The notes under the pieces: model-generated
Seen by the model: only the letters and a program-made list of their open reading frames with translations
The model's database searches: none
Told to the model about the DNA's origin: nothing
Position numbers and translations under genes: made by a program
Source: Lepidurus packardi
Lineage: Eukaryota; Arthropoda; Branchiopoda; Notostraca; Triopsidae
Assembly: GCA_023053545.1 (NCBI GenBank)
Contig: JAKZAN010000001.1
Coordinates: 1,136,565-1,200,564, forward strand
Direction: 5' to 3'
DNA length: 64,000 nucleotides
In this document: in pieces, positions 320 through 27,896 of the stretch
Numbering within the stretch: the stretch's first letter is position 1
Layout of the letters: every line of letters starts with the position of its first letter

Positions 320-1249
320 GAATTTGAATAGCGCGCGTTATTGGAATGGCTGCAAGGGGTGCTTTGCCCAACTGTGCGGCTTTTGCAAGTTGCCCAACTT
401 TGTCCAACTGGCAGTCGCGCTCGCAAAGCCGAACAAGTTACAGTTCAGAAAGAACCTGTTGTTGTGCATAACTTACAGAATAGTTGTTGTTTTTTTTAGC
501 TGAATTTACGTAACTTAGTCTGTCAGCAGTTACGAACACTATTCCTGTTCATTTGCAAGCATTAATTCAGCTTGATTTGTGGATTTTGTGCGTGTTTTCA
601 GTGCAAAGTTTCATTCAAACGTTTGGGCGTGTAGGCCTTTTTTTTATTTAAATTTTTTAACGGCGAAAACGGACGATTTTCTGAAATTTGGGCTGGACAA
701 GCTCAAACAAGATGTCGCTGGGTTATTATTTTCCACCTTTTGCCTGCTCCAGTTGGTAATTATTATTTGAATTTTTTAGGAGAGACATCCTTATTCCTTC
801 GCCTGTTATTCAAATGAAGCTGATTGAAAACATAGCATGCCACGTGGGACAGTCATGTGTGAGATTAAGGAAAGATATTTTTAAATGTACTTAACAGTTT
901 AATTTAGTGCAATAGATCAGTAATAATAAAAGGAATAAAATAGGTCCGTCCTCTTTACGTCGCAGCTCTCGTTCTTATGAATTCGGCTTATTAGTTAGTT
1001 ATTTATGCATATAAACAAATGTTTATATTTCTCCATTCATACATCGTCGTAAGCAATTGTAAGCTTTTTTGCTTAATCTCCAATTGTGGCTAGGAGACGT
1101 GGACTTTCCACAATTTTCATTCCTATCCATTTCTTGTGTACAGTTACTTGTTATTTGTACAGTTATTTATTGCCATTTTCCTTAATTTCTTGGAGGGGGA
1201 ATAGTATTGCTAGAACGCAGAATGCCAGAATACGGAATTAAAAAAAAAA

Positions 1250-4200
1250 ACTACCCAACGCAGTGCCCAATCACGTTGCTCATTGCTAACGTTGCCATAG
1301 CCTATGGCGAAATGGATACAGCCCTCTGTAGGCACTCGCCGCCACTTTGCTTAGCAGACGGAATTAATCCCGTCAGCCATTTTGTGAACAGACGCCAAGC
1401 CGACTCCACGTCAGGTAATTTGCTCCCGTTTTATTCAAATTTTTCGACTCCCATCCGACTTTTAAAACTGAAAGGCAAACTGACTTAAGTGTTATGCAAT
1501 CAGCTTGCAAATTATCACATTTTCTTAATAAAAAGTAACAATATTGATAATGTTCGACATTATTCCCAGGGGTAAGCGTCAGTAGATTTCGAACGTTTTC
1601 AAGTTTATTCGCTCCCACTGGCTACATATTGCCATTAATTCAATTAACAACTACTAGGAAGTTACCATATTCTGTCTTCCGTTTCCTCTAGTTGGGCGAA
1701 GATTTTGTTTATCCTATTTTTTCACGAAAATGTTCAAAATCCGATTTGAGCAATTTCCAGATTTCTTTTAATTCCTCAATCCTCATGACTACCAACAAAG
1801 ATATACACCCCGGAGTGTAGTCCCGTTTTTGGATTTAAAAAATATCAATGCAAACAAATTTAGCATTTTTCCGGCTAAAAAACGTAATATTAAAAATTCC
1901 CGCATGGCCGCCATTGTCGGTCCCGGTCAAAGCTCCAGCGAACGTTTTTGTCCCCGCCCTGTTCCGCCATCTTGATTTGTGTAGTCGGGTGGGATGACGT
2001 ACTTTTTTCGAGACTCAAATTCAACTTGTCAAAGCGTACAACCGTGTTAAGTTGTGTTGAAAGATGAACAGTATTACTAAGAGTTGTCCCTTTTCTATGT
2101 CTTAGGTGGTGACAAATTTCACAAACAGTTCTATTGTTACAACGTGTTAAGTGTGTGGTCCTTTCCCTCCTCCCGTTCCACTCAGCCAACTTTATCCCCC
2201 TGCCTTTTGCCATCCTTTTGGAGAAGAAAAACAGAACAGCAACGTTTTTGTCTGCTAAGCTGAGGATGCGTGGAGACAGCTATTATTTCATCTTCTGTGG
2301 GAGCCGCCAGGAGAACCAGAAGAAAAGGTATGCCAGGAGTTCAAAAGTGTTGTGGTCGGTTAGGTCTTTAGCTGCAACATTTCAACTTCCTGGGGGGACA
2401 GAAAAGTCTTCGCTGTGCCATACAATAGGTCTTAAATGGCAAAAACAGCGAAAACTTTTCTGGGGTCAGGGGTCAAACGGAAGGTGGAAGCCTCGACTGA
2501 AGAACGCGTAGACGCCGCCAGGCAGGGGGAAAGAGTTTCGTCTGTGGACATTTCTGGCTGAGTACATTCTTTTCTATTGAATTTAAATATCGGTAACATT
2601 GTTAGTAACTAACTTCCATCTCGTTTACAGGCTTTCACTCCGTTTGGGTCCCTTAGTGCTCCGGCTGGGATTTTGCCGTGTTTTCAAGATTGTTGCTGTT
2701 TTGGGGGGGATCCACGTGTTCGCTCAGTCGAAGTAAGAACTTGTTTGGATTTTTTCCAAAGTGGCTTTCTGGTTTCTTTCCCTAATCGAAGAGTCCATTT
2801 TATGTTTGAACATGTTGGTTAACATGGCCATAGAAGAAGAAGATAGAATGCTTGGAAAGTTTTTAAAATGGCTCAGTTTTACAGTTTTTATTCATATTTT
2901 ATAGTTTTTATTCTTGTTCTTTTTTCCTAGGACGTTCACGAGACCGCGAGAAAAGGGAGGGCGAAGTCTCGGAAGGCTATTGGTCGTAGGAAAGCAAAGC
3001 AAAAAAAAAAAGGGGAGCAGAACCTGCACCTGGTCGACTTTGGGCAAAATCTCCGCCTTTCCCACACTTGCTATGTCTCCAGCCGGGGAAAATGGATACA
3101 TTTGAGTCTTCTGAAAAAGGGAAGCACATTTTGTGTATTATTCTCTGCTTTCGTCTGCGTTCGTCTTTGTTGGGCAATTCAAACTTTTTTTTTTTTTAAT
3201 GTGGTAGTTTCTTGAGTTTGTGCAGAGAAACCTTCGCTAATGCTAGCCACGCCAAGCTTTTGGGTTTGGAAGAATGAAACAGTTCTTGGCCAGAAGTGTT
3301 TTGTTTCGGTCAAACTTTGCCGCATTGAGTCATTTTTGAGTTAGTTTTCATCCCAGTGAGGGTTTATTTCTTGCCCATTTCTGAGAACGCGCCCGGAAGA
3401 GAACGTAACTTGTTCATTGGAATTCTATTGATGCTTTTCTCGTTTATTTTCGTTTTTCCTTCCGAGTGGACGTGGGACACCTTGATAGATTTGATCCTCT
3501 GCCATTCTTACATAAAGTTTATGGCCTTTTTGGTGCTAACTTTCCCTAATCGGGTTTGGAAAGATTAGCGCTTTGTGTTGGACGGTGCGTAATCCCTGTG
3601 ATCCGGTCCCTTGGTGAACTTTCTTCAATTCCGCGGTGTTTTCAAGACGTTTTCGGTGTTTTCAAGAAGAAGTCGAGGTAACCTTTTCGTTTTCCCGTGG
3701 AAATTTTTTTTAAATGTATTCTTGTTTTTCTCACCCCTCTTTGCTCTAGGCTTCCTCTTTTGAGCCCCTAGTGCTCTTTCCTCGCTGATTAGTAGCGCAG
3801 GCATTCCTAAAGAAGATTATCCGTGCATTAATGGCGATTCCTCCAGCTGCAATACCAAAGATCATCGTCATCATCAGCTCTTCCCTCAACCCTTGCCTTG
3901 CCTTTAAGCGCCGCCGTAGCTGATCCCGTTGATGTTCTTCACGTCGCCTTTGATTCGGATTTCGGATTCGCCCTTTCTTGTGATGGAACTGGAGACCCAG
4001 AGGGCATAAGGTATGCTAGGAGGTTTGGCTGCGGTAAATCGCTTAAAGATTTGCTGCAATCCAACTTTCTGGGGGGCAGAAAAGTTTCCGTTGCTGCATG
4101 ATTCGTTAGGTCTTTAATGGTAGCAACGGAGCTTCTCTGTTTTTTCGAGGGGGGCGTGGTTTAGGTGGATTTTGGATTCAGTTGGAAATCAGGCAGGCCA

Positions 4201-6748
4201 GGGTTGAGTTCATCTGTGGATTGAAGAAGTGGAGTAAGTTTTTCCCTTATTTTTTGTTTATTGAATATTAATAGTTTTATTTGTAATTCAACAAGGCTTC
4301 TCAACCGGATTCCCTGCGTTACTACCCGAGATTATCTTCATTTGAAGCCTTTGTGAGGCTAAACTCCGTGTAGCCTCACATTTTCAGTGTGTTAAGTCTG
4401 AAACGGTTGCAACGGAGCTTCTCTGGGTGCATCGCTCTCTGGGAGGGCGCGATTCGGGTGCATTGTGGGGCCTATGGAGGACCAGCAGGAAAGGGGCGTT
4501 ATATTCGGGTGTGGTGATGAAGAGGCGGAGTAAGTTTTGACTTGTTATTTTTTTTTATTCTCTATACTAGTGTTGTTGTTTTTATTCAAATAGGCTACCC
4601 ATTGGATCTCCTGCGTTATTACTTAACATCTCAATGACATTGTGCCTTTATGTTGTTAAATGCCGTCCATTAGAAGAAAGCAAAGACATAAGAAGTGGCT
4701 CGATTCTGGCCCTCGACCCACGTCGTAGTAGAATTCGCCAGAAGTTTCGGTTTGGCAAGCCGTTCTCTGATTCGCTACCATGGATTGACGAACCCGAACC
4801 AAAGCTGCGCAGTACTTTCGTTGCTGTGAAAGCTGTGCTTTCGTATCAACATCAAACCGTGTCCGGATAGGTTCAAGAGAACGAATCCACAAGTGTGTTG
4901 CCTTTGAACGGATGTGCATCCTGAAGAACTCCCATAACATCAGTTGCTCCCTAGCAAGCAGTTAGTGCTTTTCTCCAGAGATGTTGTGAAAGCTAGTAGT
5001 GAGTTTATAGTTAAACATTACCAAGCATGTTGTACATTAACAATCCGCTTCAGCGTTATTTTCGAAAACATTACCAATTGGATCTTCGAAAACCCTGAAG
5101 AACCCGTATAACGTCAGTTGCTCCCTAGCAAGCAGTTAGTGCAGACTTGCTTTTCTCCAGCGATGTTGTGAAAGCTAGTAGTGAAGCTAATAGTGAGTTT
5201 ATAGTTGAAACATTACCAAGCATGTTGAACATTAACAATCCGATTAAGCGTTATCGTCGAAAACATTACCAATTGGATCTTCGAAAATCTGGAGACAATT
5301 CAAGTGTCAAGTGTGGTGTTTGGCAAAAGGCTGGCCAGGCCTATGCCAGTAAAACAAAATGTGTTGGTGTTAAGTGTGCTCTCATCCCTCCCATTCATCC
5401 CTCCTGTCTACTTCATCCCTGCCTTACATCATCCTTCGCAGTCGACACAATTTACAACTTTAATCTGCTAAGCTGATACTTCTGCTACTTGGAGGTAGCT
5501 ACTTACCTTCTGTGGGAACTAGGAGAACCAGAAGGAACAGGTATGCCAGGAGTTAAAGTGTTGTTGGCCGATTAGGTCTTTTGCCGCAACTTTTAATTTC
5601 CTGGGCGGCGAAAAGTCTTGGTTGTTGCCATTCATTAGGTCTTTAATGGTAACAACGAAGCTTTTCTATGTTAACGCGTGGTCAACGGATTTGGGGAGCC
5701 TCTACTGAAGAACGCAGCCCTGGCAGGGATGGAAGTTTCGCCCATTTGTCTGATCCTTGGGATGCCTTCATTCCCCTTTCTTCAAATCCCGGTGTATTCA
5801 AGAGCGAAAAGTGCAGATGGAAGTTTCGCCCATTTGCCTGATCTTCGGGATTCCTTCATGCCCCTTCTTCAAATCCCCGTGTTTCCAAGAGTGAAAAGTG
5901 CCGCGATAAACCGTTCTTCGGGTTGGTCCCTTGGTGAGCTTTCTTCACATTCAGCGGTGTTCCCAAGATTGCCTGCTAAGCCAAAGTCAACTTTTGCAAG
6001 TCGGAGTGTTCGCGAGGTCGAGGTAAAAGATAATCTTTGTCGTTCCCATGTCATTTAGATTTTGATTCGTTTGTAAACATTTGGAACTTACTTTTTCCTA
6101 CTTTACGTTTCGTTGCAGGATCTTTGGTAACGTTAATCGACTAAAGTGGGTGGAAGGTGGCAAAAGGGGGAGGACAACTGGGTGTTACGACGTTCATACG
6201 ATGTCCTGAACCGGAAATGCAGAAGTGAAGTCGACTTGACGAACGTCTCAAACGTGTGCAACTTGTGTTGTTGTTTTTTATTTGTCCATCGAAAGTCTAC
6301 AAACACAAAACTCGGCAAGTTTTCTACTTCTCCAAAGTCCTTCTCCTTTTCACATATTTTATGCAACTTGTGTTGTTGTTTTTTATGTGTTACCGGAAGT
6401 CTACAAACGCGAATCAGGACAAGTTTGATCCTTTTCATACGTTTTGCATTTTCACTCGTTTTGGGAGCCTTCCTCTGCGGATGTGTTTGTTCACACGTAT
6501 TTGTAAGTTTTAGACATTTTGTTTATGAATTGATTTCATGCGTACTGATATTTTTCTCTTCTTCTAGTTTTCGGTGACGAAATGAAGGGGAAGAGGAAGT
6601 AATCCTGTGCCAAGAGGTCAACATCTAACGAATCCGATTTCAGTTTAAAGGTCATGGGAAGCTTCGGAGTGATTGTTGTAACACGTTAATTTACATTTAT
6701 AAGTTTTTACTACTCATTGTTTCTTTCAGGCGAGCATCGCTGAGGTCT
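1250..6748 (+). repeat. Internal module, copy 1 (left arm), exon/intron-like
   Basis: The segment is collinear with 9,615-12,445 of the same arm. Matching blocks include 1,260-1,600 with 9,625-9,980, 2,670-2,815 with 10,440-10,590, 4,390-5,260 with 11,050-11,880, and 6,190-6,740 with 12,010-12,440. Several blocks end at intron-like sequences: a gtaagt-type donor, 60-80 bases, then a pyrimidine-rich stretch ending in tag or cag. Examples are about 4,531-4,592 and 6,505-6,568. Frames within the blocks are short and not conserved between copies, which argues against a protein gene. A spliced non-coding transcript, or the remains of a duplicated gene, would both fit. Confidence 0.6.
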
Positions 6749-9424
6749 TCACTATGGCGGTGGCTAACCATAGACAGCAGTGGCGGTCTTTGGCGGGCAA
6801 TTCCTTTTGGAAACATCGTTGGAGGTTTTCATTAGGGCGGTGGCTAACCATAGACAGCAGTGGCGGTCTTTGGCGGGCAATTCCTATTGAAAACATCGTT
6901 GGAGGTTTTCATTAGGGCGGTGGCTAACCTTTGACAGCTGTGGCGGTCTTTGGCGGGCAATTCATGATGAAAACATCGTTGGAGGTTCTCATTGTGATGG
7001 TGGCTAACCACAGACAGCAGTGGCGGTCTTTGGCGGGCAATTCCTATTGGAAACATCGTTGGAGGTTTTCATTAGGGCGGTGGCTAACCATAGACAGCTG
7101 TGGCGGTCTTTGGCGGGCAATTCATGATGAAAACATCGTTGGAGGTTCTCATTGTGATGGTGGCTAACCATAGACAGCAGTGGCGGTCTTTGGCGGGCAA
7201 TTCATGATGAAAACATCGTTGGAGGTTCTCATTGTGATGGTGGCTAACCATAGACAGCAGTGGCGGTCTTTGGCGGGCAATTCCTATTGAAAACATCGTT
7301 GGAGGTTTTCATTAGGGCGGTGGCTAACTTAAGACAGTTGTGGCGGTCTTTGGCGGGCAATTCCTTGTGAAAACATCGTTGGAGGTTTTCATTAGGGCGG
7401 TGGCTAACCATAGACAGTTGTGGCGGTCTTTGGCGGGCAATTCCTTTTGAAAACATCGTTGGAGGTTTTCATTAGGGCGGTGGCTAACTTAAGACAGTTG
7501 TGGCGGTCTTTGGCGGGCAATTCCTTGTGAAAACATCGTTGGAGGTTTTCATTAGGGCGGTGGCTAACCATAGACAGTTGTGGCGGTCTTTGGCGGGCAA
7601 TTCCTTTTGAAAACATCGTTGGAGGTTTTCATTAGGGCGGTGGCTAACTTAAGACAGTTGTGGCGGTCTTTGGCGGGCAATTCCTTGTGAAAACATCGTT
7701 GGAGGTTTTCATTAGGGCGGTGGCTAACCATAGACAGTTGTGGCGGTCTTTGGCGGGCAATTCCTTTTGAAAACATCGTTGGAGGTTTTCATTAGGGCGG
7801 TGGCTAACTTAAGACAGTTGTGGCGGTCTTTGGCGGGCAATTCATGATGAAAACATCGTTGGAGGTTCTCATTGTGATGGTGGCTAACCACAGACAGCAG
7901 TGGCGGTCTTTGGCGGGCAATTCCTATTGGAAACATCGTTGGAGGTTTTCATTAGGGCGGTGGCTAACCATAGACAGCTGTGGCGGTCTTTGGCGGGCAA
8001 TTCATGATGAAAACATCGTTGGAGGTTCTCATTGTGATGGTGGCTAACCATAGACAGCAGTGGCGGTCTTTGGCGGGCAATTCATGATGAAAACATCGTT
8101 GGAGGTTCTCATTGTGATGGTGGCTAACCATAGACAGCAGTGGCGGTCTTTGGCGGGCAATTCCTATTGAAAACATCGTTGGAGGTTTTCATTAGGGCGG
8201 TGGCTAACTTAAGACAGTTGTGGCGGTCTTTGGCGGGCAATTCCTTGTGAAAACATCGTTGGAGGTTTTCATTAGGGCGGTGGCTAACCATAGACAGTTG
8301 TGGCGGTCTTTGGCGGGCAATTCCTTTTGAAAACATCGTTGGAGGTTTTCATTAGGGCGGTGGCTAACTTAAGACAGTTGTGGCGGTCTTTGGCGGGCAA
8401 TTCCTTGTGAAAACATCGTTGGAGGTTTTCATTAGGGCGGTGGCTAACCATAGACAGTTGTGGCGGTCTTTGGCGGGCAATTCCTTTTGAAAACATCGTT
8501 GGAGGTTTTCATTAGGGCGGTGGCTAACTTAAGACAGTTGTGGCGGTCTTTGGCGGGCAATTCCTTGTGAAAACATCGTTGGAGGTTTTCATTAGGGCGG
8601 TGGCTAACCATAGACAGTTGTGGCGGTCTTTGGCGGGCAATTCCTTTTGAAAACATCGTTGGAGGTTTTCATTAGGGCGGTGGCTAACTTAAGACAGTTG
8701 TGGCGGTCTTTGGCGGGCAATTCCTTGTGAAAACATCGTTGGAGGTTTTCATTAGGGCGGTGGCTAACCATAGACAGCTGTGGCGGTCTTTGGCGGGCAA
8801 TTCATGATGAAAACATCGTTGGAGGTTCTCATTGTGATGGTGGCTAACCATAGACAGCAGTGGCGGTCTTTGGCGGGCAATTCCTATTGAAAACATCGTT
8901 GGAGGTTTTCATTAGGGCAGTGGCTAACCATAGACAGCTGTGGCGGTCTTTGGCGGGCAATTCATGATGAAAACATCGTTGGAGGTTCTCATTGTGATGG
9001 TGGCTAACCATAGACAGCAGTGGCGGTCTTTGGCGGGCAATTCCTATTGAAAACATCGTTGGAGGTTTTCATTAGGGCAGTGGCTAACCATAGACAGCTG
9101 TGGCGGTCTTTGGCGGGCAATTCATGATGAAAACATCGTTGGAGGTTCTCATTGTGATGGTGGCTAACCATAGACAGCAGTGGCGGTCTTTGGCGGGCAA
9201 TTCCTTTTGAAAACATCGTGGGAGGTTTTCGTTAGGGCGGTGGCTAACCATAGACAGCAGTGGCGGTCTTTGGCGGGCAATTCCTATTGAAAACATCGTT
9301 GGAGGTTTTCATTAGGGCAGTGGCTAACCATAGACAGCAGTGGCGGTCTTTGGCGGGCAGTTCGAACGTTAATTATGGCGGTGGCTAACCTTAGACAGCA
9401 GTGGCGGTCTTTGGCGGGCAATTC
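6749..9424 (+). repeat. 80-bp tandem array, left arm (about 33 copies)
   Basis: Tandem units of exactly 80 bases, each containing tggcggtctttggcgggcaa, an aaacatcgttggagg segment and ggcggtggctaac. Variants differ at a few sites: the residues after the gcaattc core (ccttttga, ccttgtga, cctattga, catgatga) and the bases before gacag. The block at about 6,960-7,840 recurs 880 bases (11 units) later at about 7,840-8,720 with the same order of variants, which is a higher-order repeat. The array starts directly after an acceptor-like ttctttcagg and a degenerate first unit. It ends with a truncated unit near 9,361 and one last copy. The many 70-residue frames over it are by-products of the period and are not genes. 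Confidence 0.97.
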
Positions 9425-9614
9425 ACGGAATCCAAGGACGCAAGACTCAAAATCACGGAATTCAAGAACGTAATGCAAATTTAAGAAAAAAATGCTATTC
9501 TTTTAATGTTTTGTGTAATTTTTTGTAGATTACGCGGCTGTCGGTTTGGGAGAACTACTCTGTATTTTGAAGCCTGTGATAGGTAGTTCGCAGGATTCGT
9601 AATTTAAACACACT

Positions 9615-12445
9615 CACCCAGCGCAGTGCCCAATCAGGATGCTCGTAATGTTGCCATGGTTTCTGGCGAATGGGTACAGCCCTCTGTCGGCGCTTGTCGG
9701 TGCTTGTCGATGACGACGGAATTAATCTCGTCTGCGAACAAAACTAGAACCTTCTACACGTCAGGTATTTTGCTCCCGTTTTATTTCAAGTTTATCGACG
9801 CCCATCCGACTTGTATCAAAGTGAAAGCATCCAACACTTGTATAGTATGCAAGCAGCATGCATATTCTCACAGTTTGCTCATTAAAAGTAGCAATATTGA
9901 GCATTTTCGACATAATTCCCGAGGGTTAGCGTCAGTAGGCTTCGAACAATTTTTCGAACGTTTTCAAGTGTCTTCGCTCCCCGTTGGCTACATATTGCCA
10001 TTAGTGTCAAGTTCCCGCAGTGCCTTCCATTTCCTCTAGTCAGACAACGATTCGTTCTTTCCATTTTTCGCGAAATCCGATTTTCTTTTTAGCAATTTTC
10101 CAGTGGCTTTTTTGATGTGTCAAGTCGGGTGGGGTGACTGTTTTAGTGACTCAACTTAAACTGGACAAAGCTTACAAAGTTGTGCTTAAACCTTACAAAG
10201 TTTACCCTTACAAAGTTGTGCTTAAACCTGAACGGTATTTACTAAGAGTTCCTTTTCTATTTATTAGACGGTGCCACATTTCACAGTGAGTGATAGTATG
10301 ACAACGTGTTAAGCGTGTGGTGCTCATCCATTCCCTCTTCCTGTTCTGCTAAGCTGAGGCTGTGGGGAGACAGCTATTGTTTCAAGTGCTGTGTGAGCCG
10401 CCAGGAGAACCAGATATGCCCGGAGTTGAAGAGTGTGGTGGAATCCGGCTGCGATTTTGCCGTGTTTTCAAGATTGTTGCTGTTTTGGGGGAGCATCCAC
10501 GTGTTCGCTCAGTCGGGTAAGAACTTATTGGAATTTTTTGTGTGGCTTTCTGGTTTCTTTCCCCAATCGAAGAGTCCATTTTATGTTTGCAAGCTGCGCT
10601 ATCTACAAGCTGCGCTAAACACTACAAGCTGCAATAAACCCTACAAACTGCGACATCTAGTATCAACTAGTAGAGACTCACTGAACACCCCAAGACACGA
10701 ACGAGCCAGCAGAAGGGTGTTTTTCTCCTAATACTTTTGACATAATACTGATGCTTGTCTCTTTTGTTCTAGAATTCTCGGAGTGAAAACGAAGGGAAGG
10801 CTTTCAACTGGATTCACTTCGTGACTACCCAAGATTAGAGCCATTTGAAGCCTTTCTGACGCTGAACTCCGCCCACTTTTGAAGAAGACGAGGAAACTTG
10901 TGAGCCGCAGTTACCAGATTCGTCTTTGATGTTCGTTACGCAAGGTCAATTTTTTAGTTTTAATGAACTCGATCTTTTTGTATTAATATCGGCTTTTGTC
11001 ATTGTCCAATAGGCTTGAGGTAGAGCTCCGTTGTGCTAATATTTCGCATTGGGAAATACCACGAGTGTGTTAAGTCTTCAACGGTAGCAACGGAGCTTCT
11101 CTGGGTTTTGGAGGGCGTGGTTCGGGTGCATTGTGGGGCCTGTGGAGGACCAGCAGGAAAGGGGCGTTATATTCTGGTGTGGTGATGAAGAGGCGGAGTA
11201 AGTTTTGACTTGTTGTTTTATTTTATTCTGTGTACTAGTGTTGTTGTTTTTATTCAAATAGGCTATCCATTGGAACTCCTGCGTTACTACTTAACAACAT
11301 CTCAATGACATTATGAATGTATGTTGTTAAATGCCGTCCATTAGAAGAAAGCGAAGACATAAGAAGTGGCTCGGTTCTGGCCCTCGAATCTTCCTCTGCG
11401 GATGTGTTTGTTCACACTTATTTGTAAGTTTTAAACATTTTCTTTATGAATTTGTACCGATATTTTTCTCTTTTCTTCTAGTTTTCGGTGGCAAAATGAA
11501 GGGGAAGAGGAAGTAATCCTGTGCCAAGAGGTCAGCATCTCCTAACGAATCAGATTTCGGTTTGGTTTGGCAAGCCGTTCTCTGATTCGCTACCATGGAT
11601 GGACGAACCCGAACCGAAGCTGCGTAGCACTGCATGTGTTTTCGTATAAACACCAAACCGTGTCCGGATAGTTTCAAGAGTTTGTTGCCTTTGAACGGAT
11701 GTCCCCCCTGAAGAACCCTATAACGTCAGTTGCTCCCTAGCAAGCAGTCAGTGCTCACCTGCTTCTCTCCAGCGATGTTGTGAAAGCTAGTAGTGAGTTT
11801 ATAGTTAAACATTCCCAAGCATGTTGAACATTAACAATCGGATTAAGCGTTATCTTCGAAAACATTACCAATTGGATCTTCGAAAACCTGGAATCAATTC
11901 AAGTGCGCGTTTAAAGTGTTACGTGTGGTGTTTGGCAAAAGGCTTGTCAGGCCTATGCCAGTACAAAAATATGTGTTGGTGTTAAGTGTGCTCTCTACTT
12001 CATCCCTGCATTACACCGGAAATGCAAAAGTGAGGACGAACGTCTCAAACGTGTGTTGTTGTGTTTTAGTTGTGTGTCGGGAGTCTACAAACACAAAATT
12101 CGGCAAGTTTTCTCCTCCTCCAAAGTCCTCCTCCTTTTCATACGTTTTCTGTTTTCACTCGTTTTGGGAGCCTTCCTCTGCGGATGTGTTCACACTTATT
12201 TGTAAGTTTTAAACATTTTGTTAATGAATTGATTTCATGCGTGCTAATATTTTTCTATTTTCTTCTAGTTTTCGGTGGCAAAATGAAGGGGAAGAGGAAG
12301 TAATCCTGTGCCAAGAGGTCAGCATCTCCTAACGAATCAGATTTCAGTGTAAACGTCATGGGGACCTTCGGAGTGATGGTAGTAACGCTTTAAATTTACA
12401 TTTGTAAGTTTTTACTACTCGTTGTTTCTTTCAGGCTAGCAAATA
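9615..12445 (+). repeat. Internal module, copy 2 (left arm), shortened and diverged
   Basis: Second, shorter copy of the module at 1,250-6,748, in the same orientation and order. It repeats the intron-like units at about 11,200-11,260, 11,424-11,480 and 12,200-12,268. Where copy 1 runs into the 80-bp array after a ttctttcagg acceptor-like sequence, copy 2 has the same acceptor-like sequence at about 12,427-12,436 followed by unrelated DNA. Its mirror in the right arm is about 15,150-17,990. Confidence 0.6.
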
Positions 12446-13285: not shown

Positions 13286-13335
13286 TTATATATAATAGGC
13301 GTTGAGGCAGGTATATAAGCAACATAGGAACCAAA

Positions 13336-13432: not shown

Positions 13433-13439
13433 TGGAGTA

Positions 13440-14160: not shown

Positions 14161-14177
14161 TGACTCCACGTACTCCA

Positions 14178-14382: not shown

Positions 14383-17300
14383 ACTTTATTTCGTCGAATA
14401 AACGAAATATTAATTGGCTCCCTTTCCCTGTACCATATACCAAATTCCCGGCAAGGTTCCTATTCGCATATTCGAAATTGTGATGCTTCGGCATTACGAG
14501 CTCGAATATCGTGGATAGGAAACCGAGCAGGGGAGTTGGGTACAGGGAAAGGGGCGAGGCTTCAATTTTTGACGATTTTTCAAGGGGACCCCCTTGATCG
14601 TGCAGGGATCCTTATGGAAAATAGCCCAGAAAACGCTTCGAAATCTCGAAAAGGAGCCACGCCCCCTTTTTGGTCCAATCCACCAATAGGATTCGTCCAT
14701 TTCGGAAACCACGCCCCCTTTTTTAGCGGATTTTTTGAAAATTCACGCAAAAATATTTAAAATTTTAATTTTTATTGCAAAATGTGGCAAATAATACAAA
14801 AAGGACATTTTTGGAAACTAGATTTTACGGGGAACTTTTTGGTACAACAAATAAGGCGAACAAATAAACAAAACGAACAAATAAACAAAACAAACAAATA
14901 AATAAAACTTAAAACTAAGAAAAAAAATTAAAAGTCAAGTCAGTTGAAACTCAACTGAAATCCTGAAGTACTAGGAGAACGGCGAATGAAGCGGCGAATC
15001 TAAAGCGTGACTTGGGGAAAAGTGAAGAAAATTAAAATTTAAAAGAAATCTCAACAATACAAACTGCATGTAAGTCGGCTTTTTGCTACCCGCTTCGAAA
15101 TCTTGTCATCCATATTCGACTTCAATCCAAATATTCGATCCAAATAGCCTTCTATTTGCTAGCCTGAAAGAAACAACGAGTAGTAAAAACTTACAAATGT
15201 AAATTTAAAGCGTTACTACCATCACTCCGAAGGTCCCCATGACGTTTACACTGAAATCTGATTCGTTAGGAGATGCTGACCTCTTGGCACAGGATTACTT
15301 CCTCTTCCCCTTCATTTTGCCACCGAAAACTAGAAGAAAATAGAAAAATATTAGCACGCATGAAATCAATTCATTAACAAAATGTTTAAAACTTACAAAT
15401 AAGTGTGAACACATCCGCAGAGGAAGGCTCCCAAAACGAGTGAAAACAGAAAACGTATGAAAAGGAGGAGGACTTTGGAGGAGGAGAAAACTTGCCGAAT
15501 TTTGTGTTTGTAGACTCCCGACACACAACTAAAACACAACAACACACGTTTGAGACGTTCGTCCTCACTTTTGCATTTCCGGTGTAATGCAGGGATGAAG
15601 TAGAGAGCACACTTAACACCAACACATATTTTTGTACTGGCATAGGCCTGACAAGCCTTTTGCCAAACACCACACGTAACACTTTAAACGCGCACTTGAA
15701 TTGATTCCAGGTTTTCGAAGATCCAATTGGTAATGTTTTCGAAGATAACGCTTAATCCGATTGTTAATGTTCAACATGCTTGGGAATGTTTAACTATAAA
15801 CTCACTACTAGCTTTCACAACATCGCTGGAGAGAAGCAGGTGAGCACTGACTGCTTGCTAGGGAGCAACTGACGTTATAGGGTTCTTCAGGGGGGACATC
15901 CGTTCAAAGGCAACAAACTCTTGAAACTATCCGGACACGGTTTGGTGTTTATACGAAAACACATGCAGTGCTACGCAGCTTCGGTTCGGGTTCGTCCATC
16001 CATGGTAGCGAATCAGAGAACGGCTTGCCAAACCAAACCGAAATCTGATTCGTTAGGAGATGCTGACCTCTTGGCACAGGATTACTTCCTCTTCCCCTTC
16101 ATTTTGCCACCGAAAACTAGAAGAAAAGAGAAAAATATCGGTACAAATTCATAAAGAAAATGTTTAAAACTTACAAATAAGTGTGAACAAACACATCCGC
16201 AGAGGAAGATTCGAGGGCCAGAACCGAGCCACTTCTTATGTCTTCGCTTTCTTCTAATGGACGGCATTTAACAACATACATTCATAATGTCATTGAGATG
16301 TTGTTAAGTAGTAACGCAGGAGTTCCAATGGATAGCCTATTTGAATAAAAACAACAACACTAGTACACAGAATAAAATAAAACAACAAGTCAAAACTTAC
16401 TCCGCCTCTTCATCACCACACCAGAATATAACGCCCCTTTCCTGCTGGTCCTCCACAGGCCCCACAATGCACCCGAACCACGCCCTCCAAAACCCAGAGA
16501 AGCTCCGTTGCTACCGTTGAAGACTTAACACACTCGTGGTATTTCCCAATGCGAAATATTAGCACAACGGAGCTCTACCTCAAGCCTATTGGACAATGAC
16601 AAAAGCCGATATTAATACAAAAAGATCGAGTTCATTAAAACTAAAAAATTGACCTTGCGTAACGAACATCAAAGACGAATCTGGTAACTGCGGCTCACAA
16701 GTTTCCTCGTCTTCTTCAAAAGTGGGCGGAGTTCAGCGTCAGAAAGGCTTCAAATGGCTCTAATCTTGGGTAGTCACGAAGTGAATCCAGTTGAAAGCCT
16801 TCCCTTCGTTTTCACTCCGAGAATTCTAGAACAAAAGAGACAAGCATCAGTATTATGTCAAAAGTATTAGGAGAAAAACACCCTTCTGCTGGCTCGTTCG
16901 TGTCTTGGGGTGTTCAGTGAGTCTCTACTAGTTGATACTAGATGTCGCAGTTTGTAGGGTTTATTGCAGCTTGTAGTGTTTAGCGCAGCTTGTAGATAGC
17001 GCAGCTTGCAAACATAAAATGGACTCTTCGATTGGGGAAAGAAACCAGAAAGCCACACAAAAAATTCCAATAAGTTCTTACCCGACTGAGCGAACACGTG
17101 GATGCTCCCCCAAAACAGCAACAATCTTGAAAACACGGCAAAATCGCAGCCGGATTCCACCACACTCTTCAACTCCGGGCATATCTGGTTCTCCTGGCGG
17201 CTCACACAGCACTTGAAACAATAGCTGTCTCCCCACAGCCTCAGCTTAGCAGAACAGGAAGAGGGAATGGATGAGCACCACACGCTTAACACGTTGTCAT

Positions 17301-17993
17301 ACTATCACTCACTGTGAAATGTGGCACCGTCTAATAAATAGAAAAGGAACTCTTAGTAAATACCGTTCAGGTTTAAGCACAACTTTGTAAGGGTAAACTT
17401 TGTAAGGTTTAAGCACAACTTTGTAAGCTTTGTCCAGTTTAAGTTGAGTCACTAAAACAGTCACCCCACCCGACTTGACACATCAAAAAAGCCACTGGAA
17501 AATTGCTAAAAAGAAAATCGGATTTCGCGAAAAATGGAAAGAACGAATCGTTGTCTGACTAGAGGAAATGGAAGGCACTGCGGGAACTTGACACTAATGG
17601 CAATATGTAGCCAACGGGGAGCGAAGACACTTGAAAACGTTCGAAAAATTGTTCGAAGCCTACTGACGCTAACCCTCGGGAATTATGTCGAAAATGCTCA
17701 ATATTGCTACTTTTAATGAGCAAACTGTGAGAATATGCATGCTGCTTGCATACTATACAAGTGTTGGATGCTTTCACTTTGATACAAGTCGGATGGGCGT
17801 CGATAAACTTGAAATAAAACGGGAGCAAAATACCTGACGTGTAGAAGGTTCTAGTTTTGTTCGCAGACGAGATTAATTCCGTCGTCATCGACAAGCACCG
17901 ACAAGCGCCGACAGAGGGCTGTACCCATTCGCCAGAAACCATGGCAACATTACGAGCATCCTGATTGGGCACTGCGCTGGGTGAGTGTGTTTA

Positions 17994-19545
17994 AACTCCA
18001 TATTCTGACATTCTAAAATGAAGGATAATACGCATAAAAATGAAGGAAAATACAAATAATTTGAAGGAAAATACAAATAAAAATGAAGGAAAATACAAAT
18101 ACAAAAATCACTTACCAAAAAATTAACAAATCGGAGGAGGGAAAGCATCGCACAACTCCAGTTGTGAACGCCAAAGACGAAACTGGGTGATTTGATAACT
18201 GCAGCTCACAAGACTCTTCGCTTTCTTCTTATTGACGGAACTGAACGACACAATAAAGGCACAATGTCATGGAGATGTTGTTAAGTAATAATGGATAAAT
18301 GGATAGCCTATTGGAATAAAAGCAACAACATTAGTAGAGAGAATTAAAAAAAAAACAATAAGAAATCCAAACTTACTCCGCCCTCTTCAACACCACACAC
18401 GCAATACCGTCCCTTGCCTGCTGGTCCTCCACCGGCCCCACAACCACGCCCACCAAAACCCAGACGACCATGAAGACTGAACGGGCCTGTTCGCGGTATT
18501 TCCCAATACGGAATAGTAGCCAAACGGAGCTCTATCTCAAGCCTATTAGACAATGACAAGGCAGATATTAATACAAAAGATCGAGTTCATTCAAATCAAA
18601 AATTTACTTTGCGTAATGAACACCAAAGACGAATCTGGTAACCGCGGCTCACAAGTATCCTCGGCTTCTCGAAAGTGGGTGTTTTATTTCGCATCCAAAT
18701 GGTTTTCTGAACCTTTCCAAAAGCTTTCCTGTTGGCATAAATTGAAACCATGAATTCAGCATTTTTCCTTTTAGCGCTCCTTAAAAAGAATGCCTACAGA
18801 GACTCAAATGAGAAGGAAAATTTCCTCAAAATAAAAGTTTGAGAATTTGGGGAAAACGAAAAATTACCTCGACTTCGTCTTGAAAACACCGCGGAATTGA
18901 ACAAAGAAGGCCGCCGGATTCTGACATAAAGCCGACGAGTCCATAATCTTGTAAGGGACCAAATTAAATTACGAAAATGACGATCAAATTGATCCGATCC
19001 TGGACGTTGATTTCAAATTGAGAATCACAATAATTTCCTGCTTGATCAGGTCTTCTGCCTAACAAAAATTGTGTCATCTACTGTTTGTCGTTCTTCCGTT
19101 GTAATTCACCATTATTGCATCCTTATGTATATGTGAAATTAATTCACCTTCCTTGGAAGCTAGACGATGGAGGATCTGCGGTGCTCTGACACGCTGCGGA
19201 CAAATTCGCATCATGGCAATACCGCGATGGATCACTTGAGATTATTTCTTCATTTTCACTTGAACTATAATAAGATAAAGATAAGACCAATTAATCAAAT
19301 TGTAAAACGCATTCAAAAGAAAACTTACATTTCGCTTTCCTTCCGGTCCTGGCAAAGAACTAAACCTCTGCAGAAGATTCGCATCCCTGGCCATCAGTCA
19401 GCGAGCAACGCTGGCGTCCCTCACCCCGTTGATGTTGATACTCAGCCAATCCCTCCAGACAGGGTTCCAGGCTTTGTAGGCACAACACTGGACACCACTG
19501 ATATCGCAGGACTTCCAGCGCCTCTCTCGAAAGGGATTACGAATC
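17994..19545 (-). repeat. Right-arm-only block of about 1.55 kb
   Basis: The left arm joins directly at about 9,594-9,606, where cacactcaccc abuts the sequence equivalent to 19,545 onward. In the right arm this block intervenes. It opens with repeated gaaggaaaatacaaata-like units (about 18,020-18,110) and continues with diverged copies of arm modules (18,190-18,760) and a stretch at 18,850-18,905 resembling 24,560-24,620. The end near 19,540 matches the left-arm sequence again. The 163-residue frame at 19,167-19,658 crosses into the shared sequence and shows no recognisable domain. Confidence 0.7.
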
Positions 19546-19716
19546 CTGCGAACTACCTATCACAGGCTTCAAAATACAGAGTAGTTCTCCCAAACCGACA
19601 GCCGCGTAATCTACAAAAAATTACACAAAACATTAAAAGAATAGCATTTTTTTCTTAAATTTGCATTACGTTCTTGAATTCCGTGATTTTGAGTCTTGCG
19701 TCCTTGGATTCCGTGA

Positions 19717-21505
19717 ATTGCCCGCCAAAGACCGCCACTGCTGTCTAAGGTTAGCCACCGCCATAATTAACGTTCGAACGGCCCGCCAAAGACCGCCACT
19801 GCTGTCTATGGTTAGCCACCGCCCTAATGAAAACCTCCAACGATGTTTTCAATAGGAATTGCCCGCCAAAGACCGCCACAACTGTCCATGGTTAGCCACC
19901 GCCCTAATGAAAACCTCCAACGATGTTTTCAAAAGGAATTGCCCGCCAAAGACCGCCCTAAGTTAGCCACCGCCCTAATGAAAACCTCCAACGATGTTTT
20001 CAAAAGGAATTGCCCGCCAAAGACCGCCACAACTGTCTAAGGTTAGCCACCGCCCTAATGAAAACCTCCAACGATGTTTTCACAAGGAATTGCCCGCCAA
20101 AGACCGCCACAACTGTCTTAAGTTAGCCACCGCCCTAATGAAAACCTCCAACGATGTTTTCAAAAGGAATTGCCCGCCAAAGACCGCCACTGCTGTCTTA
20201 AGTTAGCCACCGCCCTAATGAAAACCTCCAACGATGTTTTCAAAAGGAATTGCCCGCCAAAGACCGCCACTGCTGTCTTAAGTTAGCCACCGCCCTAATG
20301 AAAACCTCCAACGATGTTTTCAAAAGGAATTGCCCGCCAAAGACCGCCACAACTGTCTATGGTTAGCCACCGCCCTAATGAAAACCTCCAACGATGTTTT
20401 CAATAGGAATTGCCCGCCAAAGACCGCCACTGCTGTCTTAAGTTAGCCACCGCCCTATGAAAACCTCCAACGATGTTTTCAAAAGGAATTGCCCGCCAAA
20501 GACCGCCACAACTGTCTATGGTTAGCCACCGCCCTAATGAAAACCTCCAACGATGTTTTCAATAGGAATTGCCCGCCAAAGACCGCCACTGCTGTCTTAA
20601 GTTAGCCACCGCCCTAATGAAAACCTCCAACGATGTTTTCAATAGGAATTGCCCGCCAAAGACCGCCACAACTGTCTATGGTTAGCCACCGCCCTAATGA
20701 AAACCTCCAACGATGTTTTCAATAGGAATTGCCCGCCAAAGACCGCCACTGCTGTCTTAAGTTAGCCACCGCCCTAATGAAAACCTCCAACGATGTTTTC
20801 AAAAGGAATTGCCCGCCAAAGACCGCCACAACTGTCTATGGTTAGCCACCGCCCTAATGAAAACCTCCAACGATGTTTTCAATAGGAATTGCCCGCCAAA
20901 GACCGCCACAACTGTCTTAAGTTAGCCACCGCCCTAATGAAAACCTCCAACGATGTTTTCAATAGGAATTGCCCGCCAAAGACCGCCACTGCTGTCTATG
21001 GTTAGCCACCGCCCTAATGAAAACCTCCAACGATGTTTTCAATAGGAATTGCCCGCCAAAGACCGCCACTGCTGTCTATGGTTAGCCACCGCCCTAATGA
21101 AAACCTCCAACGATGTTTTCAAAAGGAATTGCCCGCCAAAGACCGCCACAACTGTCTATGGTTAGCCACCGCCCTAATGAAAACCTCCAACGATGTTTTC
21201 AATAGGAATTGCCCGCCAAAGACCGCCACTGCTGTCTTAAGTTAGCCACCGCCCTATGAAAACCTCCAACGATGTTTTCAAAAGGAATTGCCCGCCAAAG
21301 ACCGCCACAACTGTCTATGGTTAGCCACCGCCCTAATGAAAACCTCCAACGATGTTTTCAATAGGAATTGCCCGCCAAAGACCGCCACTGCTGTCTTAAG
21401 TTAGCCACCGCCCTAATGAAAACCTCCAACGATGTTTTCAATAGGAATTGCCCGCCAAAGACCGCCACTGCTGTCTATGGTTAGCCACCGCCATAGTGAA
21501 GACCT
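19717..21505 (-). repeat. 80-bp tandem array, right arm (about 22 copies)
   Basis: Inverted counterpart of the left array, with the same unit read on the minus strand. It is about 900 bases shorter. It lacks the catgatga variant that is common on the left, and it has units with one-base or longer deletions (near 19,955, 20,455 and 21,256). The 11-unit higher-order pattern is not evident here. The sequences around both arrays are nearly identical, so array length and variant order have changed while the flanks stayed alike. Confidence 0.96.
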
Positions 21506-24500
21506 CAGCGATGCTCGCCTGAAAGAAACAATGAGTAGTAAAAACTTATAAATGTAAATTAACGTGTTACAACAATCACTCCGAAGCTCCCCATGACCTT
21601 TAAACTGAAATCGGATTCGTTAGATGTTGACCTCTTGGCACAGGATTACTTCCTCTTCCCCTTCATTTCGACACCGAAAACTAGAAGAAGAGAAAAATAT
21701 CAGTACGCATGAAATCAATTCATAAACAAAATGTCTAAAACTTACAAATACGTGTGAACAAACACATCCGCAGAGGAAGGCTCCCGAAACGAGTGAAAAT
21801 GCAAAACGTATGAAAAGGATCAAACTTGTCCTGATTCGCGTTTGTAGACTTCCGGTAACACATAAAAAACAACAACACAAGTTGCATAAAATATGTGAAA
21901 AGGAGAAGGACTTTGGAGAAGTAGAAAACTTGCCGAGTTTTGTGTTTGTAGACTTTCGATGGACAAATAAAAAACAACAACACAAGTTGCACACGTTTGA
22001 GACGTTCGTCAAGTCGACTTCACTTCTGCATTTCCGGTTCAGGACATCGTATGAACGTCGTAACACCCAGTTGTCCTCCCCCTTTTGCCACCTTCCACCC
22101 ACTTTAGTCGATTAACGTTACCAAAGATCCTGCAACGAAACGTAAAGTAGAAAAAAGTAAGTTCCAAATGTTTACAAACGAATCAAAATCTAAATGACAT
22201 GGGAACGACAAAGATTATCTTTTACCTCGACCTCGCGAACACTCCGACTTGCAAAAGTTGACTTTGGCTTAGCAGGCAATCTTGGGAACACCGCTGAATG
22301 TGAAGAAAGCTCACCAAGGGACCAACCCGAAGAACGGTTTATCGCGGCACTTTTCACTCTTGGAAACACGGGGATTTGAAGAAGGGGCATGAAGGAATCC
22401 CGAAGATCAGGCAAATGGGCGAAACTTCCATCTGCACTTTTCGCTCTTGAATACACCGGGATTTGAAGAAAGGGGAATGAAGGCATCCCAAGGATCAGAC
22501 AAATGGGCGAAACTTCCATCCCTGCCAGGGCTGCGTTCTTCAGTAGAGGCTCCCCAAATCCGTTGACCACGCGTTAACATAGAAAAGCTTCGTTGTTACC
22601 ATTAAAGACCTAATGAATGGCAACAACCAAGACTTTTCGCCGCCCAGGAAATTAAAAGTTGCGGCAAAAGACCTAATCGGCCAACAACACTTTAACTCCT
22701 GGCATACCTGTTCCTTCTGGTTCTCCTAGTTCCCACAGAAGGTAAGTAGCTACCTCCAAGTAGCAGAAGTATCAGCTTAGCAGATTAAAGTTGTAAATTG
22801 TGTCGACTGCGAAGGATGATGTAAGGCAGGGATGAAGTAGACAGGAGGGATGAATGGGAGGGATGAGAGCACACTTAACACCAACACATTTTGTTTTACT
22901 GGCATAGGCCTGGCCAGCCTTTTGCCAAACACCACACTTGACACTTGAATTGTCTCCAGATTTTCGAAGATCCAATTGGTAATGTTTTCGACGATAACGC
23001 TTAATCGGATTGTTAATGTTCAACATGCTTGGTAATGTTTCAACTATAAACTCACTATTAGCTTCACTACTAGCTTTCACAACATCGCTGGAGAAAAGCA
23101 AGTCTGCACTAACTGCTTGCTAGGGAGCAACTGACGTTATACGGGTTCTTCAGGGTTTTCGAAGATCCAATTGGTAATGTTTTCGAAAATAACGCTGAAG
23201 CGGATTGTTAATGTACAACATGCTTGGTAATGTTTAACTATAAACTCACTACTAGCTTTCACAACATCTCTGGAGAAAAGCACTAACTGCTTGCTAGGGA
23301 GCAACTGATGTTATGGGAGTTCTTCAGGATGCACATCCGTTCAAAGGCAACACACTTGTGGATTCGTTCTCTTGAACCTATCCGGACACGGTTTGATGTT
23401 GATACGAAAGCACAGCTTTCACAGCAACGAAAGTACTGCGCAGCTTTGGTTCGGGTTCGTCAATCCATGGTAGCGAATCAGAGAACGGCTTGCCAAACCG
23501 AAACTTCTGGCGAATTCTACTACGACGTGGGTCGAGGGCCAGAATCGAGCCACTTCTTATGTCTTTGCTTTCTTCTAATGGACGGCATTTAACAACATAA
23601 AGGCACAATGTCATTGAGATGTTAAGTAATAACGCAGGAGATCCAATGGGTAGCCTATTTGAATAAAAACAACAACACTAGTATAGAGAATAAAAAAAAA
23701 TAACAAGTCAAAACTTACTCCGCCTCTTCATCACCACACCCGAATATAACGCCCCTTTCCTGCTGGTCCTCCATAGGCCCCACAATGCACCCGAATCGCG
23801 CCCTCCCAGAGAGCGATGCACCCAGAGAAGCTCCGTTGCAACCGTTTCAGACTTAACACACTGAAAATGTGAGGCTACACGGAGTTTAGCCTCACAAAGG
23901 CTTCAAATGAAGATAATCTCGGGTAGTAACGCAGGGAATCCGGTTGAGAAGCCTTGTTGAATTACAAATAAAACTATTAATATTCAATAAACAAAAAATA
24001 AGGGAAAAACTTACTCCACTTCTTCAATCCACAGATGAACTCAACCCTGGCCTGCCTGATTTCCATCGGTATCCAAAATCCACCTAAACCACGCCCCCCT
24101 CGAAAAAACAGAGAAGCTCCGTTGCTACCATTAAAGACCTAACGAATCATGCAGCAACGGAAACTTTTCTGCCCCCCAGAAAGTTGGATTGCAGCAAATC
24201 TTTAAGCGATTTACCGCAGCCAAACCTCCTAGCATACCTTATGCCCTCTGGGTCTCCAGTTCCATCACAAGAAAGGGCGAATCCGAAATCCGAATCAAAG
24301 GCGACGTGAAGAACATCAACGGGATCAGCTACGGCGGCGCTTAAAGGCAAGGCAAGGGTTGAGGGAAGAGCTGATGATGACGATGATCTTTGGTATTGCA
24401 GCTGGAGGAATCGCCATTAATGCACGGATAATCTTCTTTAGGAATGCCTGCGCTACTAATCAGCGAGGAAAGAGCACTAGGGGCTCAAAAGAGGAAGCCT

Positions 24501-27500
24501 AGAGCAAAGAGGGGTGAGAAAAACAAGAATACATTTAAAAAAAATTTCCACGGGAAAACGAAAAGGTTACCTCGACTTCTTCTTGAAAACACCGAAAACG
24601 TCTTGAAAACACCGCGGAATTGAAGAAAGTTCACCAAGGGACCGGATCACAGGGATTACGCACCGTCCAACACAAAGCGCTAATCTTTCCAAACCCGATT
24701 AGGGAAAGTTAGCACCAAAAAGGCCATAAACTTTATGTAAGAATGGCAGAGGATCAAATCTATCAAGGTGTCCCACGTCCACTCGGAAGGAAAAACGAAA
24801 ATAAACGAGAAAAGCATCAATAGAATTCCAATGAACAAGTTACGTTCTCTTCCGGGCGCGTTCTCAGAAATGGGCAAGAAATAAACCCTCACTGGGATGA
24901 AAACTAACTCAAAAATGACTCAATGCGGCAAAGTTTGACCGAAACAAAACACTTCTGGCCAAGAACTGTTTCATTCTTCCAAACCCAAAAGCTTGGCGTG
25001 GCTAGCATTAGCGAAGGTTTCTCTGCACAAACTCAAGAAACTACCACATTAAAAAAAAAAAAAGTTTGAATTGCCCAACAAAGACGAACGCAGACGAAAG
25101 CAGAGAATAATACACAAAATGTGCTTCCCTTTTTCAGAAGACTCAAATGTATCCATTTTCCCCGGCTGGAGACATAGCAAGTGTGGGAAAGGCGGAGATT
25201 TTGCCCAAAGTCGACCAGGTGCAGGTTCTGCTCCCCTTTTTTTTTTTGCTTTGCTTTCCTACGACCAATAGCCTTCCGAGACTTCGCCCTCCCTTTTCTC
25301 GCGGTCTCGTGAACGTCCTAGGAAAAAAGAACAAGAATAAAAACTATAAAATATGAATAAAAACTGTAAAACTGAGCCATTTTAAAAACTTTCCAAGCAT
25401 TCTATCTTCTTCTTCTATGGCCATGTTAACCAACATGTTCAAACATAAAATGGACTCTTCGATTAGGGAAAGAAACCAGAAAGCCACTTTGGAAAAAATC
25501 CAAACAAGTTCTTACTTCGACTGAGCGAACACGTGGATCCCCCCCAAAACAGCAACAATCTTGAAAACACGGCAAAATCCCAGCCGGAGCACTAAGGGAC
25601 CCAAACGGAGTGAAAGCCTGTAAACGAGATGGAAGTTAGTTACTAACAATGTTACCGATATTTAAATTCAATAGAAAAGAATGTACTCAGCCAGAAATGT
25701 CCACAGACGAAACTCTTTCCCCCTGCCTGGCGGCGTCTACGCGTTCTTCAGTCGAGGCTTCCACCTTCCGTTTGACCCCTGACCCCAGAAAAGTTTTCGC
25801 TGTTTTTGCCATTTAAGACCTATTGTATGGCACAGCGAAGACTTTTCTGTCCCCCCAGGAAGTTGAAATGTTGCAGCTAAAGACCTAACCGACCACAACA
25901 CTTTTGAACTCCTGGCATACCTTTTCTTCTGGTTCTCCTGGCGGCTCCCACAGAAGATGAAATAATAGCTGTCTCCACGCATCCTCAGCTTAGCAGACAA
26001 AAACGTTGCTGTTCTGTTTTTCTTCTCCAAAAGGATGGCAAAAGGCAGGGGGATAAAGTTGGCTGAGTGGAACGGGAGGAGGGAAAGGACCACACACTTA
26101 ACACGTTGTAACAATAGAACTGTTTGTGAAATTTGTCACCACCTAAGACATAGAAAAGGGACAACTCTTAGTAATACTGTTCATCTTTCAACACAACTTA
26201 ACACGGTTGTACGCTTTGACAAGTTGAATTTGAGTCTCGAAAAAAGTACGTCATCCCACCCGACTACACAAATCAAGATGGCGGAACAGGGCGGGGACAA
26301 AAACGTTCGCTGGAGCTTTGACCGGGACCGACAATGGCGGCCATGCGGGAATTTTTAATATTACGTTTTTTAGCCGGAAAAATGCTAAATTTGTTTGCAT
26401 TGATATTTTTTAAATCCAAAAACGGGACTACACTCCGGGGTGTATATCTTTGTTGGTAGTCATGAGGATTGAGGAATTAAAAGAAATCTGGAAATTGCTC
26501 AAATCGGATTTTGAACATTTTCGTGAAAAAATAGGATAAACAAAATCTTCGCCCAACTAGAGGAAACGGAAGACAGAATATGGTAACTTCCTAGTAGTTG
26601 TTAATTGAATTAATGGCAATATGTAGCCAGTGGGAGCGAATAAACTTGAAAACGTTCGAAATCTACTGACGCTTACCCCTGGGAATAATGTCGAACATTA
26701 TCAATATTGTTACTTTTTATTAAGAAAATGTGATAATTTGCAAGCTGATTGCATAACACTTAAGTCAGTTTGCCTTTCAGTTTTAAAAGTCGGATGGGAG
26801 TCGAAAAATTTGAATAAAACGGGAGCAAATTACCTGACGTGGAGTCGGCTTGGCGTCTGTTCACAAAATGGCTGACGGGATTAATTCCGTCTGCTAAGCA
26901 AAGTGGCGGCGAGTGCCTACAGAGGGCTGTATCCATTTCGCCATAGGCTATGGCAACGTTAGCAATGAGCAACGTGATTGGGCACTGCGTTGGGTAGTTT
27001 TTTTTTATTCCGTATTCTGGCATTCTGCGTTCTAGCCATACTATTCCCCCCAAAAAAAGAAAAATTAAGGAAAATGGCATTGAATACCTGTACACAACAA
27101 ATAGATAGGAACGAAACTTGTGGAAAGTCCACGTCTCCTAGCCACACTTGGGGATTAAACACAAAAGCTTACAATTGCTTACGACGACGTATGAATGGAG
27201 AAGTATAAACATTTGTTTATATGCATAAATAACTAACTAATAAGCCGAATTCATAAGAACGAGAGCTGCGACGAAAAGAGGACGGACCTATTTTATTCCT
27301 TTTATTATTACTGATCTATTGCACTAAATTAAACTGTTAAGTACATTTAAAAATATCTTTCCTTAATCTCACACATGACTGTCCCACGTGGCATGCTATG
27401 TTTTCAATCAGCTTCATTTGAATAACAGGCGAAGGAATAAGGATGTCTCTCCTAAAAAATTCAAATAATAATTACCAACTGGAGCAGGCAAAAGGTGGAA

Positions 27501-27896
27501 AATAATAACCCAGCGACATCTTGTTTGAGCTTGTCCAGCCCAAATTTCAGAAAATCGTCCGTTTTCGCCGTTAAAAAATTTAAATAAAAAAAAGGCCTAC
27601 ACGCCCAAACGTTTGAATGAAACTTTGCACTGAAAACACGCACAAAATCCACAAATCAAGCTGAATTAATGCTTGCAAATGAACAGGAATAGTGTTCGTA
27701 ACTGCTGACAGACTAAGTTACGTAAATTCAGCTAAAAACACAACTATTCCATATAAAAAGTTATGCATAACTATAGTTTCTGTCTGAACATGTAGCTTGT
27801 TCGACTTTGCGAGCGCGACTGAGACTGCAAGTTGGACAAAAGACTGCAAGTTGGCGCCGGTTGCGGCCGTTCCAGTAACGCGCACTATTCAAATTC

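Follow-up and report, generated by a model that had tools for sequence, protein, structure and literature searches.

What kind of sequence is the large palindrome in the left half of this window, and how have its two arms stayed alike? The window is the whole stretch of 64,000 nucleotides analysed here, C1:1136565-1200564, on a contig (C1) of 14.05 Mb in a genome of 108.6 Mb and 344 contigs. The initial annotation offered three readings of the palindrome: a giant non-autonomous foldback element, a gene-converted palindrome, or a recent inverted duplication. Each was weighed against the other copies of the sequence in the genome.

Layout of the window palindrome

Self-alignment agreed with the limits first given for the palindrome, 320-27896, with arms of 13.5-13.9 kb. 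The axis at 13,892 and the spacer of about 14 bases also stand, and the spacer is flanked by two complementary dyads (Table 1). The description of the arms as near-identical was true of long mirrored tracts, but not of the length of the 80-bp array, a 1.5-kb segment, the satellite count or the outer end. In the self-comparison, 320-8563 mirrors 19715-27896 at 97.0% identity, and the inner arms (from 9603 in the left arm, up to 17995 in the right) have 4 mismatches in 4,079 columns. Mismatches cluster in the outer 1.3 kb and in the 80-bp array, within which a global alignment of the arms is unreliable; the array has 32.9 units in the left arm (6735-9363) vs 21.8 in the right (19781-21513). The segment of about 1.5 kb is present only in the right arm, and a relative of it sits in the left arm of P3, one of the related palindromes described below. 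Beside the core the left arm carries about two more units of the 92-bp satellite than the right, and for that reason the unique inner arms mirror each other about position ~13,799 and not about the core at 13,892. The left arm runs beyond 320 to the element terminus, the first base of which, C1:1136564, directly precedes window position 1. On the other side, the right arm lacks the terminal 0.3 kb and the terminus, stopping at about 27896-27907, with the border at about C1:1164471. Long inverted-repeat arms that contain tandem repeats and leave a short middle or none are the structure of the foldback class.

Table 1. Parts of the palindrome, in window coordinates
Feature	Position	Strand
Tip of the left terminal inverted repeat, reads TATGGCATTCGGTAAGCCCC; first T at window position 0 = C1:1136564	1..20	+
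Left subterminal region, with TATCAA minisatellite at 86-131; missing at the right end	1..319	+
Left arm, running from its A side to its B side	320..13448	+
80-bp tandem array, left arm, ~33 units	6735..9425	+
92-bp satellite, left side, pointing inward	13449..13840	+
Core, a pair of complementary dyads of 32 bp each (13841-13872, 13912-13943)	13841..13943	
92-bp satellite, right side, pointing inward	13944..14161	-
Right arm, outer end truncated relative to the left arm	14162..27896	-
Segment of ~1.5 kb, right arm only	17995..19536	-
80-bp tandem array, right arm, ~22 units	19536..21513	-

The absence of a recognisable protein holds for the part of the arms that was scanned. Nine of ten arm ORFs had no Pfam match, and the tenth (1890-2279, minus strand) gave only a sub-threshold match to TBCC (tubulin binding cofactor C), at 22.4 bits against a cut-off of 24.8, which is possibly chance or a captured gene fragment. 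Profile searches and ORF scans of the arms did not find a transposase. A tRNA-like stretch lies at about 13216-13285 on the minus strand, containing GGTTCGATTCC, which we take to be B-box-like, and it occurs also in the B ends of other copies; no Rfam tRNA match was reported for it. Across the window Rfam gave nothing at gathering score, and eight permissive matches at 12.9-13.5 kb were all below it.

The remainder of the window has a different content. Three ORFs lie on the minus strand within 31736-40650, one of 616 aa (31736-33586), one with ankyrin repeats (36051-36395) and one of 323 aa (39679-40650), and together these may represent exons of a single ankyrin-repeat gene. For the 616-aa ORF there were 15 weak relatives, unnamed or hypothetical proteins of 30-60% identity. 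An ORF at 49252-49773 (plus strand) has a Pex2/Pex12 domain match of 54.3 bits, placing an ordinary peroxisome gene beside the palindrome. Tandem arrays occur in the right half of the window at 45042-46648 (319-bp units), 53365-53858 (123-bp) and 55566-56580 (170-bp), with an imperfect inverted repeat, 75% over about 0.5 kb, at 60688-61200. TTAGG, the arthropod telomere repeat, forms arrays elsewhere in the genome, one of them at the very end of contig C3.

A dispersed family with common termini

The search for other copies that the initial annotation had proposed uncovered a dispersed family; the palindrome is not unique, and it is not a duplicated gene either. Three pieces of the palindrome gave at least 108, 93 and 145 genome matches, on C1-C6 and C16; these are lower bounds, the best 40 of 261, 339 and 304 first-look candidates having been scored. 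A copy on C2 (4612507-4621630) consists of a single arm, with an A end, the 80-bp array and a B end, and has neither an inverted partner nor the 92-bp satellite. On C3, 12345649-12359005 is an inverted pair with 3.3-kb arms of 95.5% identity. Its junction differs from that on C1, and its arm map has no C1 satellite core. Two further pairs on C3 (4199723-4214998 and 11912775-11927410) are inverted by their coordinates. The idea that the palindromic arrangement is limited to C1 was dropped on account of these three pairs, one read and two known by coordinates.

The A ends of the family are ragged, and this, together with the many copies whose match is confined to the final ~500 bp of the B end, at first resembled 5' truncation. 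However, a non-LTR retrotransposon was ruled out by the relation between the flanks of the two ends and by a common terminus with target duplications. The B-end flanks are inverted relatives of the A-end flanks. The ten best rows align over 137-461 columns with 73-86% identity, and at least 40 rows have the expected sense vs 5 the opposite. A 111-base probe from the left end matched at least 41 places (best 40 of 111 candidates scored). Fifteen of the 41 matches begin exactly at probe base 8, the first T of TATGG, and the others at bases 1-15. With up to two mismatches TATGGCATTCGGTAAGCCCC occurs at 81 places (40 forward, 41 reverse; control 0), and its copies form 18 inward-facing neighbour pairs less than 40 kb apart, inverted at both ends. 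The terminal inverted repeats of the family are TATGG...CCATA. A 6-bp target duplication was exact in three of the five pairs whose flanks were read and had one mismatch in the other two, compared to 0-3 matching bases of 6 when different sites were combined. These duplications hold for the family; they were not seen at the window copy or at P4, another of the C1 palindromes. Helitron and Mutator/Foldback, judged by the general signatures of those families, were dropped on the same flank, terminus and duplication evidence.

In seven of the 18 terminus pairs the distance is 8,009-8,030 bp, and every one of the 14 termini is exact. These 8.01-kb elements, known here by the positions of their termini (C1:4541817, C1:10122417, C2:6625000, C3:812567, C5:12081418, C16:1131225 and C46:176012), are candidate autonomous copies. 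Among the matches listed for PF00665, PF13683, NF033577, PF05699 and NF033516 none lies inside the seven elements, and the same is true of the matches listed for the three arm probes. In the rve/IS3-like searches the best 150 of 544, 150 of 305, 63 of 635 and 79 of 478 candidates were scored. Also abundant in the genome are ORFs of about 404 aa that resemble one another and carry an rve integrase domain, with a large number of them on C16; among those listed, none is near the listed termini of the palindrome family.

Complete IS3EU families are described, in the sections consulted of one account, as having TA..TA termini and usually 6-bp duplications (PMC10045372), and fungal IS3EU families that carry a TET/JBP gene as ending in TAYGG..CCRTA (PMC12730594, likewise in part). 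The ends found here have the TA..TA form, in the TAYGG..CCRTA version, and the 6-bp duplication is present at the level of the family; judged by its ends and duplications, the family appears to fit the IS3EU superfamily closely. That the termini belong instead to some other superfamily with 6-bp duplications is rather unlikely. The point in its favour is that the rve/IS3-like matches listed include none in the 8.01-kb elements. Against it, TA..TA, TAYGG..CCRTA and the 6-bp length together agree with the IS3EU descriptions, and the transposase searches scored the best candidates only, mostly long ORFs of retrotransposon length. A hAT element with 6-bp duplications was rejected, as among the hAT matches listed (best 150 of 306 candidates) none lies in the seven elements either.

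Related palindromes on C1

Clusters of two-sided matches lie at eight places on C1, all within 0.30-1.45 Mb. Seven were read and are called P1-P7, the window copy being P7; the eighth (1412686-1450221) apparently has two axes, by coordinates only. In the C1 palindromes the two arms meet B side to B side across the 92-bp satellite, with one common 32-bp dyad core. The core, GAAGGTCATTGAA-ATCCAA-TTCAATGACCTTC, is exact at the axis of all seven palindromes read, in one or other orientation; in the window it is the dyad at 13841-13872. It is doubled in P5, P6 and P7, the P5 form being flipped vs those of P6 and P7. The dyad can fold into a 13-bp stem with a 6-base loop, and such a hairpin is a plausible start point for foldback priming. 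Both arms are long in P7 and short in P4-P6, and P3 combines a long left with a short right arm.

The flanks of the seven palindromes are mostly unrelated, and therefore the copies have reached new places. Apart from short repeats and outer parts of the element, the 14 flanks have in common only a 4.5-kb repeat, which is in the left flank of P1 and the right flank of P3 (86%), at a distance of 2-12 kb from the elements. This limited sharing ruled out segmental duplication of a genomic block. P4 is the sole palindrome read with both termini, which are 12,541 bp apart. Its flanks are inverted copies of each other over at least 26 bp, with no direct 6-bp duplication, and the genome has three copies of the 26-mer, one on each side of P4 and one to the right of P2. 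Either the founder duplication took in host flank, or conversion overran the end of an arm. Given the inverted flanks of P4 and a window copy without a right terminus, movement as a unit that leaves target duplications, as in a foldback element, was not observed for the palindromes.

Evidence for arm-to-arm conversion

Six arm segments were compared within and between palindromes. In five palindromes the segments are identical or nearly so within the palindrome and mostly 1-7% different between palindromes. In P7 five segments are 100.0% identical between the arms and the outermost is at 97.6%; the arms of P2 are at 100, 100, 99.9 and 99.6%, with 94.1% in the outermost; those of P5 are at 100% in three segments and 99.6, 98.2 and 99.2% in the others. 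The P1 arms are at 100% in both segments where they align, and the P6 arms at 100% in two segments and 95.6-99.3% in four. P3 (90.4-98.5%) and P4 (95.7-98.1%) are exceptions, not homogenised in the tested segments. Between palindromes identity is mostly 95-99% in the inner segments and 93-98% in the outer ones. Higher values for P5 left with P6 right (100%, one segment), P2 with P3 right (99.5%) and P3 left with P7 (99.4%) suggest exchange or recent common descent across palindromes too. Between the arms of P7, the 5,000 columns at about 1.5-6.5 kb contain 5 differences and the 3,488 at about 10-13.5 kb contain none, yet P7 differs from the other C1 arms by 0.6-6.4% in the five inner segments.

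P5 and P6 were compared site by site. At sites where the four arms divide two and two, 106 group the arms within a palindrome, 45 group the left arm of one with the right arm of the other, and none follow the third pattern. The patterns form four runs, and none of 20,000 shuffles had as few. We read this block pattern as the signature of arm-to-arm gene conversion. The 45 cross-palindrome sites mean that P5 and P6 descend from a palindrome whose arms already differed; after the two separated, a central tract of about 4 kb was made identical within each. That the arms are alike within palindromes and different between them, block by block, supports the gene-converted palindrome of the initial annotation. 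It is strongly supported that conversion has made long tracts identical within each of several palindromes; the tandem arrays and outer ends diverge. Conversion of a whole arm would explain the long and short arm combinations of P3, P7 and P4-P6.

Origin and spread

The initial proposal of a giant non-autonomous foldback element is supported in that the arm is one copy of a dispersed family marked by terminal inverted repeats and 6-bp duplications, and the evidence supports taking it together with the gene-converted palindrome. The palindrome is probably a giant foldback derivative of a non-autonomous, IS3EU-like DNA transposon family, its arms kept alike by arm-to-arm conversion. An ancestral copy would have lost its B-side terminal repeat and been duplicated in inverted orientation at the short core dyad, with the A ends left outside; foldback priming is the likely route for this step. 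The palindromes could then have been moved by a transposase acting in trans on their outer ends or, alternatively, spread by recombination that copied flanks.

A recent, one-off inverted duplication is not supported, given a core shared by seven of seven palindromes read and arm-specific differences common to P5 and P6 from before their separation. It could still be supposed that each palindrome arose separately and recently, when a single-arm copy was duplicated in inverted orientation at the same dyad, and that its arms are alike through youth and not conversion. The self-folding core would agree with this, as would the arms of P1, P2 and P7, which match completely or almost completely in most inner segments. 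It is disfavoured for P5 and P6, however, by the 45 common arm-specific sites, and the P6 arms are at 100% in two segments yet 95.6% in another, where a young duplication should be alike from end to end. We consider separate origins quite improbable. An artefact of assembly or library, by chimeric foldback reads or mis-joined arms, is less probable again, to the point of being very unlikely. Near-perfect arms with a tiny spacer are typical of foldback-read artefacts and are found here, the palindrome is known here from the assembly alone, and the P1 region contains a 100-N gap. But the arms differ in array length, in the 1.5-kb segment and in clustered mismatches, and the seven palindromes have one core yet different arms and flanks. 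On the sequence evidence, the structural arm differences and the core common to seven places make a pure assembly artefact appear unlikely, though not impossible.

That whole palindromes move as ordinary cut-and-paste transposons, the transposase working on the two outer termini, is possible but doubtful. P4 has both termini, the flanks of different palindromes are mostly unrelated, and the window copy is flush at its left terminus. However, the P4 flanks are inverted and without a direct 6-bp duplication, the same 26 bp recurs at P2 and nowhere else, and the remaining palindrome ends are ragged. The 26-bp flank common to P2 and both sides of P4 would fit a spread that drags flanks along: the transposon-derived palindrome as a self-homogenising unit, its arms kept alike by conversion, spreading within one chromosome region by recombination or break-copying and not by end-cutting. 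That region, 0.3-1.45 Mb of C1, may have suppressed crossing-over. We offer this as a speculation, and an unlikely one.

Comparison with known systems

The comparisons that follow hold for the portions consulted of the papers cited. With IS3EU/GingerRoot (PMC10045372, PMC12730594) the present family has in common the TA..TA termini, here TATGG..CCATA, and the 6-bp target duplications; unlike them, it is non-autonomous, no transposase was found and its palindromic derivatives reach 28 kb. Tetris (PMC4079207) and Galileo (PMC3573991) have long inverted repeats with internal tandem repeats, as here, and Tetris is apparently non-autonomous, with only its ends in common with another element. The inverted repeats of Galileo are about 0.3-1.2 kb, compared to arms of about 13.5 kb here, and Galileo is a P-superfamily element. 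Neither resembles the present case in having one satellite core common to seven palindromes, and the term gene conversion is absent from the Galileo paper. The willow W and the human Y (PMC7023750) have several large palindromes per region with arm identity through arm-to-arm conversion, as here. In contrast, the arms here are a non-coding transposon derivative with no recognisable genes, and the likeness drawn here is one of structure and arm identity. Foldback priming at double-strand breaks (PMC10622511) is a proposed route to inverted duplication from a short inverted repeat, comparable to the core dyad; it was demonstrated in yeast, and for the core dyad we only infer it. Among the titles and abstract openings surveyed on foldback elements, palindromes and IS3EU, none describes palindromes that derive from a transposon, reach this size and undergo arm conversion, which does not prove their absence.

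Giant palindromes are prone to breaking and rearranging chromosomes, and the present findings would link a little-studied transposon superfamily to their birth. Arm-to-arm conversion in large palindromes has mostly been discussed for gene-bearing sex chromosomes. With seven related palindromes that have no recognisable genes and are built on one core, it becomes possible to trace conversion tracts, and where they end, directly against sister copies, with no selection on genes.
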